NCBI RefSeq assembly: GCF_041379045.1
Contig: NZ_CP166871.1
Coordinates: 3,224,001 to 3,288,000 of the forward strand
Reading direction: 5' to 3'
From: Thalassotalea ponticola
GTDB taxonomy: Bacteria > Pseudomonadota > Gammaproteobacteria > Enterobacterales > Alteromonadaceae
Length of the DNA: 64,000 bases
Shown one piece after another: positions 42,723 to 51,121 of this stretch; position 1 is the stretch's first letter, and each line of letters starts with the position of its first letter. The notes under the pieces were generated by a model, which was given only the letters and a program-made list of their open reading frames with translations, did no database searches and was not told the origin of the DNA. The position numbers and the translations under genes were made by a program.

Positions 42723-44432
42723 CTATTCTTTTTTGTTTTCACTGATGCCCAATTGATCAAATCGCTGTTTTACCGCTTCTGATATCGACCATTTGGCTTC
42801 ATCGATTTCACTAGAGCGCACCCAAAAACGGGCGATATATTTTACTTCTGATTCGCCTAGCTCATACACCCTAGCATGTTTATCGCGATCCTGCTCTACA
42901 ACCTCACTTTTATCGAGCTCCTCAGAGATAGCCGCCAATATAGCTTTTGAATCACAGGCATAAGGGGCAGTAAAAAATAAATCCAAGCGCACGTGAGGTT
43001 CCGAGGTCACATTGTGGATGATGTCTTTCCAAATGGTGTTATTGGGCACGGTCAAATGGTGGTTGGCCGAAGTAAATATGGTTGTTGTTACTAACGTCAT
43101 CTCTCGCACACGACCTTCGAGCCCAGCAACCCGAATTTTGTCGCCAACATCATAAGGGCGATAAATGAGAATCATCAGACCTGAGGCAAAATTGGCCAGC
43201 GTTTCTTGAAGGGCAAAACCAATGACAAAACCCATAATCCCCAAACCAGCAAGTAATGGACCTATTTGCAGTCCCAGTTGAGCCAATGCATACAATAAAC
43301 CGAGTAATAAAATCAATCGACCAGAGCTGACGATTAAAAACTTGCGCGCTAATTCTGACATATTAGGGCGACTGCGTTTGAGACTAGCACTGACAATATA
43401 GCGCACGAGCTTTGCCAGCAGGCCAGCAATAACAAAGATACCGATAAAGGTTATCGCGCTACCAATGATACTGGGCGCTTGACGCCGTAGCCAAGTTTTA
43501 AAGTTAATCCACCACTCGGTAACAAGGTGTGCCAATACTTGTCCGTCGAGGACCTCTTCACTTAGCGTATTTCGGGCTTGAATTACCGTCTTCTTATAGA
43601 GCGCCGCCGACAAGTCAAGATCTTCCAATAACGTAACTTGTTGCTGTAATCGATTGGCGTACTCTTGAATTTCTAAATTGAGCAGCGCCGTTTGTGAAAT
43701 CAGTTTTTTGCCGGTTTCCGACTCCGTGCGCACCACCGCTTTTTGCTTTTGTAACTTCATCAGCTTGTCTTCGTTTAAACCAATTAAACCGGCTAGTGTG
43801 TCGGCCTGCTTGCGAACTCGCTCCTTAGCTAGCAATAGTGGACGTTGATTATCTACGTCGAGGAACGCCGACTTTTTGGTTAAGTAAACCAGCGCGTAAT
43901 ACAGTTCTTCTTGGTAACGACGGGCGAGGTTTAACCGCCAATTCATTTGCTCTACCCGGTCTTTTGCCGGGCCTGCGTTGACGGTAAAAATGCTTTGTCG
44001 CGCTGTCGCTATTTTTTCTTCCAGTTCGCGTACCGATTTATCGCTACTGTCGATATCCGCGTATATATCGACCAGAGCCTTCTCAACCAGCTCCCGCGCT
44101 GACTGACGATAGGATTTAATGAATGGTTGGTCTTTATTGGCATAGACTTCATCGAGATATTGCAATAGCAAGTTGCGATAGCGAGTTAACGTGCTTTGCC
44201 GCTGCTTTGCCAACGCCCGCTTTTGATATCCAAGGGTATCATCACGCTCGGTTTCGATCTGTTCGATAAGCTCTTGATAATCAGCAATTTCGGTTAGAGT
44301 TTGCTGTAATTTTTGCTCAACATTAGCGTCTTGAGCGTCCGCATTTGATGCTTGAGCGACTGACAGCATGGCGGCGAGCCATGTGCATGACAGCGCGATC
44401 AGTGTATATCGTAAAAAGGGAAGTGATGTCAT
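42723..44432 (-). CDS. MscS-type mechanosensitive channel with coiled-coil periplasmic domain
   Basis: The 569-residue protein has a signal peptide (LIALSCTWLAAMLSVAQA) and a long charged helical domain (about 35-290; KRALAKQRQSTLTRYRNLLL). Membrane helices begin near 325, and an MscS core follows with the pore helix GLGIMGFVIGFALQETLANF (near 400). The beta-domain signature is IYRPYDVGDKIRVAGLEGRV, and VPNNTIWKDIIHNVT comes after it. It probably opens under membrane tension at hypo-osmotic shock. The extended N-terminus resembles that of larger MscK/YnaI-type channels, but no more specific subfamily is assigned. Confidence 0.9.
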   Translation of the reverse strand: MTSLPFLRYTLIALSCTWLAAMLSVAQASNADAQDANVEQKLQQTLTEIADYQELIEQIETERDDTLGYQKRALAKQRQSTLTRYRNLLLQYLDEVYANKDQPFIKSYRQSARELVEKALVDIYADIDSSDKSVRELEEKIATARQSIFTVNAGPAKDRVEQMNWRLNLARRYQEELYYALVYLTKKSAFLDVDNQRPLLLAKERVRKQADTLAGLIGLNEDKLMKLQKQKAVVRTESETGKKLISQTALLNLEIQEYANRLQQQVTLLEDLDLSAALYKKTVIQARNTLSEEVLDGQVLAHLVTEWWINFKTWLRRQAPSIIGSAITFIGIFVIAGLLAKLVRYIVSASLKRSRPNMSELARKFLIVSSGRLILLLGLLYALAQLGLQIGPLLAGLGIMGFVIGFALQETLANFASGLMILIYRPYDVGDKIRVAGLEGRVREMTLVTTTIFTSANHHLTVPNNTIWKDIIHNVTSEPHVRLDLFFTAPYACDSKAILAAISEELDKSEVVEQDRDKHARVYELGESEVKYIARFWVRSSEIDEAKWSISEAVKQRFDQLGISENKKE

Positions 44433-44621: not shown

Positions 44622-44671
44622 AAAAAAGCACCGGTATTCGCATCTTTAAGAGCGAGTAACGGTGCTTTTTT
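44622..44671 (-). terminator. Terminator of the short-peptide operon
   Basis: Stem AAAAAAGCACCG (44622-44633) / CGGTGCTTTTTT (44660-44671), extended by an inner pairing TATTCGC/GCGAGTA. Read leftward it ends in a U-run and starts 25 nt after the 32-residue frame. Confidence 0.8.
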
Positions 44672-44695: not shown

Positions 44696-44794
44696 TTAGC
44701 GCCACCAGTTGTCGGCAGGCATTTCGTATAGCCCTAACTCAACTTCAACTTTATTAACTGGCTTTTTAAACAGTGACTGAAGAAGTGCTAACAT
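44696..44794 (-). CDS. 32-residue protein with acidic beta-strand, partner of the RVKIRI repeat peptide
   Basis: A frame of 32 codons (MLALLQSLFKKPVNKVEVEL, then GLYEMPADNWWR) with a consensus ribosome site AGGAGG ending 4 nt before ATG 44794. It begins 15 nt after the stop of the repeat-peptide gene and ends 25 nt before a strong terminator, so the two form one transcript. The N-terminus is a short amphipathic or hydrophobic helix without a signal peptidase site. The middle (VEVEL) alternates acidic and hydrophobic residues, mirroring the cationic strand of its neighbour; a Trp-Trp-Arg end follows. No family is recognised; partner or immunity role is speculative. Confidence 0.6.
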   Translation of the reverse strand: MLALLQSLFKKPVNKVEVELGLYEMPADNWWR

Positions 44795-44809
44795 AGATCC
44801 TCCTGTCGA

Positions 44810-45037
44810 CTATATGCGGATTTTTACGCGAGTTTGCTCAACATCAAGCTGCTGAGTATCATTTTGCTCAGGCTTAATGCGGATTTTTACACGGCTTAGC
44901 TCTGGCTTAATGCGGATTTTTACGCGGCTTAGCTCTGGCTGAATACGGATTTTTACGCGAGACTCGGTTGCGTCGACAGCATCGCCTTGTACAGGTGACG
45001 TAGCCATAAGTGCAGAGAATAAAATAGAACTTAACAT
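44810..45037 (-). CDS. 75-residue putative exported peptide with four RVKIRI repeats
   Basis: Start ATG 45037 has TTGGAG 6 nt upstream. The first 18 residues (MLSSILFSALMATSPVQG) look like a short signal peptide, though without basic residues. After an acidic spacer (DAVDATES) come 11-residue units RVKIRIQPELS, RVKIRIKPELS and RVKIRIKPEQN, a spacer DTQQLDVEQT, and a final RVKIRI at the C-terminus. Each unit is a perfect alternation of basic and hydrophobic residues, typical of an amphipathic beta-strand, separated by a Pro-Glu turn. The first units are nearly identical 33-bp DNA repeats. It is first gene of a two-gene operon; function unknown. Confidence 0.7.
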   Translation of the reverse strand: MLSSILFSALMATSPVQGDAVDATESRVKIRIQPELSRVKIRIKPELSRVKIRIKPEQNDTQQLDVEQTRVKIRI

Positions 45038-45182
45038 AGTGAACTCCAAGGGATTGTTATTTTTGTATAAATCTAACAATCACCCTGCAGTAACTATGCC
45101 AACTTTACCTCGACACCCAAATCAAGTAGTTAAAACGAAGGTGCTCTCGGCCTAACCGTGATCAACACCACCGCTAAACCAA

Positions 45183-49908: not shown

Positions 49909-49939
49909 ACAGTTACTTTTTACTATGAGGTTTAGTCAG

Positions 49940-51121
49940 TTGAAATTTGATGTTGTAGTTATCGGCGCAGGCGCCGCTGGATTGTTTTGTGCGGCCACAG
50001 CAGCGAAACGCGGTCGTCGCGTATTGGTTGTTGATCACGCCAAACGCCCGGGTAAAAAGATTTTGATTTCCGGCGGTGGTCGCTGTAACTTCACTAACTA
50101 CTACATCGAGCCGGAAAAGTACTTGTGTAATAACCCGCACTTTTGTAAATCGGCGCTGAGTCAATACACCCAGTGGGATTTTATTGCGCTGGTTGAACGC
50201 TACAATATTGCCTACCACGAAAAAACGTTAGGCCAATTATTTTGCGACGATAGCGCTAAAGACATTGTCGCCATGTTGGTTAGTGAGTGTGAACAACATC
50301 AGGTGTCGTTTAGCTATCAAACCGAGATTTTGGCTGTTGAAAAGCGCGATGACAACCAGTATCACATTAACACCAGCAAAGCGGATTTTGATTGTGAAAG
50401 CTTGGTTATCGCCACAGGCGGTCTATCAATGCCTAAACTTGGCGCAACGCCATTTGCCTATAAAATTGCCGAACAATTTGGCTTACAAGTGCTACCTACC
50501 CGCGCCGGCTTGGTACCGTTTACCTTACTACCTGAATTAAAAACCCCCTTGGCGGAGGTTTCAGGTGTTTCAATGCCTACCCGTATCAGTGCCAACAACA
50601 TGGCATTTAGCGAGGATATGCTGATTACCCATCGCGGTCTTTCGGGACCTGCGGTACTGCAAATATCATCTTATTGGCAACCCGGCGATGACATAAATAT
50701 AGACCTTTATCCCAATGGGGACTTTAGTGAAGTGCTGAGTAATGCCTTGCAAGAGCAACCTAATGTATCTCTTAAAAACCTATTGAATGTGAACTTTGCT
50801 AAGCGATTTGTCGAAAAGCTATTACCACTTATTGGTTTAGATAACGTACCGATTAAACAACTTAATCACAAGCAACAAGCCAGGCTAGTGGATACTATTC
50901 ACAACTGGACCGTTAAGCCATCGGGTACCGAAGGCTATCGCACGGCCGAAGTAACACTAGGTGGGGTAAACACCGATCATTTATCATCCAAAACCATGGA
51001 AGTGAAAACATGCCCTGGCCTGTATTTTATTGGCGAAGCTATGGATGTCACCGGTTGGTTAGGGGGCTACAACTTTCAGTGGGCGTGGAGCTCTGGTTAC
51101 GTTGCCGGTCAACACGCATAG
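49940..51121 (+). CDS. HI0933/YhiN-family flavoprotein
   Basis: A 393-residue FAD-dependent oxidoreductase-like protein. The dinucleotide loop is FDVVVIGAGAAGLFCAATAA at the N-terminus. KKILISGGGRCNFTN (near 42), LVIATGGLSMPKLGATPFAY (near 155) and the C-terminal GLYFIGEAMDVTGWLGGYNF are all signatures of this conserved family, whose reaction is not firmly known. I prefer TTG 49940 because GAGG lies 9 nt upstream. ATG 49925 is in frame but has no ribosome site and would leave only about 10 nt of leader. It is monocistronic. Confidence 0.88.
   Translation: MKFDVVVIGAGAAGLFCAATAAKRGRRVLVVDHAKRPGKKILISGGGRCNFTNYYIEPEKYLCNNPHFCKSALSQYTQWDFIALVERYNIAYHEKTLGQLFCDDSAKDIVAMLVSECEQHQVSFSYQTEILAVEKRDDNQYHINTSKADFDCESLVIATGGLSMPKLGATPFAYKIAEQFGLQVLPTRAGLVPFTLLPELKTPLAEVSGVSMPTRISANNMAFSEDMLITHRGLSGPAVLQISSYWQPGDDINIDLYPNGDFSEVLSNALQEQPNVSLKNLLNVNFAKRFVEKLLPLIGLDNVPIKQLNHKQQARLVDTIHNWTVKPSGTEGYRTAEVTLGGVNTDHLSSKTMEVKTCPGLYFIGEAMDVTGWLGGYNFQWAWSSGYVAGQHA

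Follow-up and report, generated by a model that had tools for sequence, protein, structure and literature searches.

A two-gene operon on the minus strand of the 64-kb window, the whole stretch of DNA analyzed here, encodes a precursor with four identical copies of the peptide core RVKIRI and belongs to an apparently undescribed family of repeat peptides. Both ORFs are real genes, the core copies are identical within nearly all arrays examined across the family, the operons share a sigma-54-type promoter, and the precursor gene is linked to the gene for a propeller sensor. We slightly favor the proposal, drawn from sequence comparison, that the precursor yields a species-specific peptide signal that is exported and then sensed by the propeller, which would set c-di-GMP. 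The sigma-54 promoter would drive an operon of the exported precursor and a small accessory peptide, and the short cationic core (RVKIRI in the window) would be set free outside the cytoplasm. It would be read by the propeller in the periplasmic part of the neighboring PAS-GGDEF-EAL sensor, this reading would alter c-di-GMP turnover, and the core copy number would set the signal dose. Core and propeller would together form a species-specific peptide signal and its receptor. Export, core excision, propeller binding, c-di-GMP output, and use between cells are steps that we infer.

The features of the locus are listed in Table 1. The original prediction had placed two ORFs 15 nt apart, the first with RVKIRI four times and the second behind an AGGAGG, downstream of a GGDEF-EAL sensor on the same strand and before a strong terminator, and sequence reading, the Pfam scan, and folding found every one of these elements in its place. 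The terminator hairpin, which was absent from the output of a simple terminator scan, had a folding energy of −24.1 kcal/mol (z −5.5), and equal stability was reached in 0/200 shuffles. The operon's own sigma-54-type promoter is an addition to that description.

Table 1. Features of the sensor-peptide locus (positions in the window)
Feature	Position	Strand	Basis
Sensor, 1498 aa	45183..49679	-	Pfam scan; periplasmic part modelled, best PDB match BT4663
Sigma-54-type promoter TGGCATAGTTACTGC	45087..45101	-	Score 9/12 and conserved place in 65/65 loci
Peptide precursor, 75 aa: hydrophobic leader (residues 1-12), linker, four RVKIRI cores	44810..45037	-	
Core copy 1, RVKIRI	44942..44959	-	Read from translation
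Core copy 2, RVKIRI	44909..44926	-	Read from translation
Core copy 3, RVKIRI	44876..44893	-	Read from translation
Core copy 4, RVKIRI, very C-terminus of precursor	44813..44830	-	Read from translation
AGGAGG ribosome-binding site of second gene	44799..44804	-	Read from sequence
WW peptide, 32 aa, C-terminal EMPADNWWR	44696..44794	-	Family profile, purifying selection in family
Terminator hairpin with T run	about 44622..44671	-	Folding vs shuffles

Neither peptide had a match above the curated cut-off among the Pfam and NCBIfam families searched, in line with the earlier statement that no named family has this repeat, and a single-sequence search of 5.8 billion proteins with the window precursor returned only itself. 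Genes of 32 to 75 codons can conceal a coherent family, and relatives surfaced only through six-frame and profile searches. The six-frame search gave matches in 15/59 genomes at E values up to 1; the precursor was found in its own genome and in seven congeners, the matches beyond these being unrelated frames by reading. The congener precursors start with MLSSLI or a close variant, and each has its own tandem core. A precursor profile matched 80 database proteins, including that of the window, with displayed names that were all “hypothetical” or “uncharacterized”; the sequences of 42 of the 80 were read. Two relatives, P0011 and P0013, carried the precomputed label PF27509.1, a family absent from the Pfam set searched.

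Scanning of 66 loci gave 40 distinct precursors that could be parsed by pattern (L032, for example, was missed). They share a hydrophobic N-terminus (MLSS in 29/40), a linker, and then core copies of 6 to 10 residues with or without spacers, and the C-terminus falls exactly at a core in 30/40, one of the other ten being interrupted by N. In the window, three 11-residue units RVKIRI[Q/K]PExx precede the C-terminal RVKIRI, and cores elsewhere in the family include NRIRI, NKIRI, GTKRGTVRI, GTKRTQVRI, GKSHGKVRI, GIREGKVRI, ARRNVRM, and AKGRGVKV. The net charge was 3 to 5 in the ten cores examined. Copy number ranges from 1 in Thalassomonas, where a 68-residue precursor ends in GRRSVRI or similar, to 14 in L034, and precursors with the core GTKRGTVRI carry five copies in L063 and four in P0028. 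The repeat peptide is probably exported. By reading, the precursor of L185 has a classical signal-peptide shape (ALVIAAAVVASAPALA) directly before its first core copy. In the window and most close relatives, the leader is without the basic residue usual in signal peptides. No excision protease was identified for the precursor. A double-glycine peptide with a C39 exporter was also considered but gained no support; the window has no double-glycine leader, and one C39 protein is encoded in the genome.

The core copies are held identical by selection. All located copies were identical in protein though their DNA differed in 35/37 arrays (the 40 parsed precursors minus three single-copy ones), with a mean pS of 0.353 and a pN of 0.0078; copies were located with up to 3 mismatches in 7 residues, and those diverging more escape the count. 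The two exceptions were the window, with S or T before RVKIRI, and L088. The spacers change, with a pS of 0.383 and a pN of 0.137 in the 12 arrays with equal-length spacers (12/14 named arrays; L051 has one usable spacer, and L032 was not among the rows). Cores in the spacer comparison were found by exact match, which makes their pN low by construction there and leaves 0.0078 as the fair figure. The spacers have diverged in protein, so the identical cores are unlikely to stem from recent duplication or gene conversion. In two related species with six copies each (L049 and L056), the fourth core residue differs, S in one species and T in the other throughout all six, with the codons AGT/AGC against ACG/ACT/ACA. 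L054 and L068 end in ...NEISI and ...NEVSI, possibly decayed cores that core locating missed, and a divergent copy was present in at least 9 of the 42 database precursors read (P0015, P0019, P0020, P0027, P0034, P0038, P0042, P0075, and P0077). A core fixed by selection inside one precursor yet different from species to species is the pattern expected of a ligand.

Sites resembling the sigma-54 consensus (GG-N10-GC, 8 to 11 of 12 consensus positions) were found 38 to 72 nt before the start codon in 40/40 parsed loci and also in 25/25 loci of a second precursor set (shuffles 0 to 4 of 300), making 65/65 in total. Per-locus shuffles reached the site score in 0 to 2 of 300 cases, but in 10 of 300 for the window, where the site scores 9/12 and its 16-base motif stands 48 nt ahead of the start codon. 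Taken as a pattern alone, the window site is within chance, with one match in 64 kb against 1.75 expected, and the evidence for this promoter is therefore its conserved place across the 65 loci. The GG-N10-GC element, in −24/−12 arrangement close before the gene, and RpoN encoded in the genome (a Sigma54_DBD match) are as predicted for a sigma-54 operon. Terminator-like repeats seen by eye between sensor and promoter in several Colwellia suggest that sensor and peptide operon are transcribed separately.

In the Pfam scan (18 families matched), the sensor comprised an N-terminal propeller (Reg_prop and Y_Y_Y), two PAS domains, GGDEF, and EAL, with no TPR domain and no histidine kinase, receiver, or DNA-binding output among the matches. 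The modelled periplasmic part (pLDDT 80, pTM 0.57) had its best Foldseek matches in 4a2m and 4a2l (BT4663; E about 1e-45, 24% identity). BT4663 and its kind, hybrid two-component sensors of Bacteroides, share this fold, a periplasmic Reg_prop propeller with Y_Y_Y; BT4663 itself is titled for heparin/heparan sulphate sensing, whereas the sensor here has a PAS-GGDEF-EAL output and a linked peptide gene. Among 31 sensors, the mean difference was 0.605 in the propeller versus 0.243 in the cytoplasmic half.

Gene order is conserved around the sensor. The 23 named loci have the order M16-type peptidase (21/23), sensor (22), precursor, WW gene, convergent fadJ (22), and fadI, and the missing genes include those of loci cut by contig ends. 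Among the sensors listed, 61/73 had a same-strand WW gene 313 to 840 nt downstream, and wherever the locus was read the precursor lay between the two; this set covers 69 genomes with WW matches, two of them weak and probably false (G129 and G210). The other 12 comprised two with WW on another contig (G017 and G084); three on short or cut contigs that show none (G155, which was read, G117, and G022); one with precursor and WW by reading (G070); four of genus g46 in which the precursor is joined by a WW-like ORF that lacks the WW end; one in which the WW match and the best sensor match lie apart (G307); and one that has lost the propeller (G001). In the window, sensor, precursor, and WW gene stay together, and the flanks are unlike those of the 23 named loci. 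The module lies between an MscS-type channel gene (42723-44432) and a 398-aa ORF (49925-51121) rather than in the M16-fadJ slot of its relatives, and it therefore seems to have moved as one block.

The linkage would also fit if the precursor were a periplasmic reporter within its own cell, with no signal between cells; the propeller sensor would then gauge the state of the envelope from the precursor's export, proteolysis, or accumulation. The M16-type peptidase encoded upstream of the sensor in 21/23 named loci could then remove the peptide, although that gene does not adjoin the sensor in the window. Nothing in such a reporter calls for exact repeated copies or for a core that differs between species, and we consider it unlikely.

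The sensor-precursor pair extends to distant genera. Downstream DNA was read for 24 full-length distant sensors (35 to 40% identity), and 20/24 had a sigma-54 site and a precursor there. The leaders of these precursors are mostly of another kind (MLKAYAVAL or a similar sequence) and have a lysine near the start, as signal peptides do. Most carry one C-terminal peptide (WKPRSVRI, IKVGSVRF, GHGVGF, and others), and three have 2 to 5 copies; the single-copy precursors of the second set are 44 to 59 aa long. Hypothetical proteins of Bowmanella were the relatives of one of them. No WW ORF was seen by reading downstream of the 20 distant precursors. In the remaining four, all of genus g3, no precursor was present in the downstream DNA read.

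Sensors without the propeller had no precursor. Ten sensors align to that of the window only from about residue 787 (626 in G284), and together with G001 these gave 11/11 sensors lacking the propeller, or most of it, with no precursor downstream; one of the ten had a chance-like sigma-54 site (score 9). In a quick tree of the cytoplasmic halves of 33 sensors, which carries a long-branch warning that includes the branch of the window, seven propeller-less rows fell in three places. G001 is nested inside the Thalassotalea-type clade (SH-aLRT 98) and occupies the ancestral slot, flanked by the M16 gene and fadJ, so that the propeller there was lost along with the peptide. The independent pairs, three in all, mostly agreed in direction (2.8 of 3 on average) but are too few to be tested. 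In the large propeller-less clade the sensor gene stands at a different locus, and a propeller may never have been present.

These distributions also bear on whether the cores are sigma-54-controlled effectors (antimicrobial, matrix, or surface-binding peptides), with the sensor merely co-regulated or adjacent. Their cationic character (net charge 3 to 5 in the ten examined) and varying copy number would suit such a role. Single-copy precursors in the distant genera and Thalassomonas, the loss of the peptide along with the propeller in G001, and a core length of 6 to 10 aa, which is short for a membrane-active peptide, argue against it, and we rate this role as somewhat less probable still than the self-sensing reporter.

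A mirror-tree comparison of propeller and peptide given the cytoplasmic half gave a partial r of 0.43 (0/2000 permutations) before a neighbor-gene control was applied. With the control, the propeller was not singled out: over 28 rows the partial r was 0.124 for the propeller (35/2000) and 0.28 for fadJ, which correlates with the peptide at least as well. The 16 Colwellia-type rows gave 0.299 for the propeller versus 0.093 for fadJ (12/2000), and the 12 Thalassotalea-type rows gave 0.215 versus 0.405 (151/2000). Core identity, the sensor-precursor linkage, the 20/24 distant precursors, and the 11/11 propeller-less sensors without a precursor speak for a signal read by the propeller. The g3 sensors without a precursor, the fadJ result, the leader without a basic residue, and the divergent copies speak against it.

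The second gene of the operon encodes the WW peptide. Behind the congener precursors stand one or two ORFs of 33 to 36 aa ending in EMSANSWWS or similar, and the ending common to the partner family is EMPAxxWW. A WW profile matched 12/15 genomes of the window's genus, its own included; 66/295 genomes and 16/52 genera in a family-wide sample, two of the 66 being weak; and 10/394 genomes in an order-wide sample, eight of them in the same family and one weak. The named relatives with WW (27 loci) belong to Colwellia, Cognaticolwellia, Pseudocolwellia, Thalassotalea, Thalassomonas, and Litorilituus, and a repeat ORF lies upstream of the WW ORF in the loci read. The WW ORFs are under purifying selection (pN 0.108 versus pS 0.618 in 139 pairs of at least 70% identity). 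Homologues of both ORFs with conserved frames, their co-occurrence, a variable number of repeats, and, for WW ORFs and cores alike, a synonymous/nonsynonymous ratio that is not near one all favor the reality of the two genes. The WW peptide begins with an amphipathic stretch, contains invariant E, A, and W residues, and, by eye, has no signal peptide; our guess is that it serves as a cytoplasmic helper of the precursor. A toxin-antitoxin or toxin-immunity pair, whose two partners should stay together, is not supported, given the 20 distant precursors with no WW ORF downstream and the four g46 loci with a degenerate WW end.

The original prediction had further taken the two products for a beta-repeat fiber or matrix component in which an acidic second peptide pairs with the cationic first. 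The local alternation of RVKIRI and VEVEL in the window fits charge-matched strands, and the VEVEL stretch is indeed acidic; the whole 32-aa product is neutral, and distant genera keep the peptide with no such partner seen. A fiber is unlikely because single-copy precursors exist (44 to 59 aa, or 68 aa in Thalassomonas) and because the core is exact within a precursor yet variable between species; cores such as GTKRGTVRI, moreover, have no strand alternation. We give the fiber very little credence. A RiPP, made when enzymes modify the cores or the WW end to give a small natural product, is likewise highly improbable. A conserved leader with repeated variable cores and an invariant tryptophan in the partner would suit it, but the conserved neighbors in the 23 named loci include no modifying enzyme, and a search for SPASM radical-SAM proteins, the one enzyme type looked for, found none in the window's genome, against matches in 8/14 genomes in the control search.

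The proposed signal and receptor resemble several known systems in part. In RRNPPA systems of Firmicutes (Rap-Phr, PlcR, NprR, and AimR), the propeptide gene is reported to lie downstream of that for its receptor, as the peptide gene lies directly downstream of the candidate receptor gene here, with up to six identical copies and with some receptors lacking a peptide (PMC9765709). The peptide-sensor system is not a member of RRNPPA, because the receptor class differs in the Pfam scan: the RRNPPA receptor is a TPR protein, whereas the candidate here is a periplasmic propeller fused to GGDEF-EAL and has no TPR domain. RRNPPA receptors bind their peptide after uptake. The hosts here, moreover, are Gram-negative, and the system has a sigma-54 promoter and a WW partner. 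The output of the sensor resembles bifunctional c-di-GMP enzymes such as that of NspS-MbaA in Vibrio cholerae, in which an outside signal reportedly alters the activity of the enzyme; that system differs in having a polyamine ligand and a separate binding protein, NspS (PMC8967002). The precursor layout recalls those of yeast alpha-factor and animal neuropeptides, in which tandem identical short peptides with spacers are secreted; the likeness is an analogy only, without homology. We know of no linked peptide precursor for NspS-MbaA.

We rate the peptide-sensor system, with the function hypothesized here, as putatively new in kind, because neither peptide matches a Pfam or NCBIfam family searched and no description of the system was found in the literature covered (open-licence papers, preprints excluded). 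To our knowledge, few propeller c-di-GMP sensors have an identified ligand, and dedicated receptors for peptide pheromones are chiefly a Gram-positive feature; the present findings suggest an unrecognized peptide signaling system in Gram-negative bacteria. More tentatively, and at a little under an even chance, we extend this to a widespread, unreported class of marine-gammaproteobacterial peptide pheromones, in which a sigma-54-driven, exported, often multicopy propeptide would supply a short, species-particular cationic core as ligand of a periplasmic propeller with direct control of c-di-GMP, with the WW helper confined to one branch. A candidate ligand is encoded beside its candidate receptor in many natural variants, and there are natural cases that lack both propeller and peptide. 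Synthetic peptides of 6 to 10 residues make it possible to test recognition, specificity, and a link to biofilm or motility.

Several minor observations concern single loci. In g3 loci L160 and L177-L179, full-length propeller sensors occupy the fadJ slot without a precursor and may be receptors without a signal gene of their own. The first 12 precursor codons of L049 and L056 are identical in DNA, although later synonymous sites have diverged, and an RNA-level constraint near the start codon is possible. In most g1 loci the precursor is followed by a tandem of two differing WW peptides, against a single one in the window and in G014. In the g46 loci L161-L164, the WW-like ORF after the precursor ends in KELPAATSL or SEMPAAKSL, with both tryptophans absent, and this partner is possibly decaying. 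The metagenome precursors P0025 and P0055 read through in frame into the WW peptide, the intervening stop codon being absent, which reflects either an assembly error or a natural fusion. In another family of the order (L096, G652), a 38-aa WW-like peptide ending in PAGSWWS (E 2.4e-5) lies at a contig end, and its precursor would fall beyond the contig.
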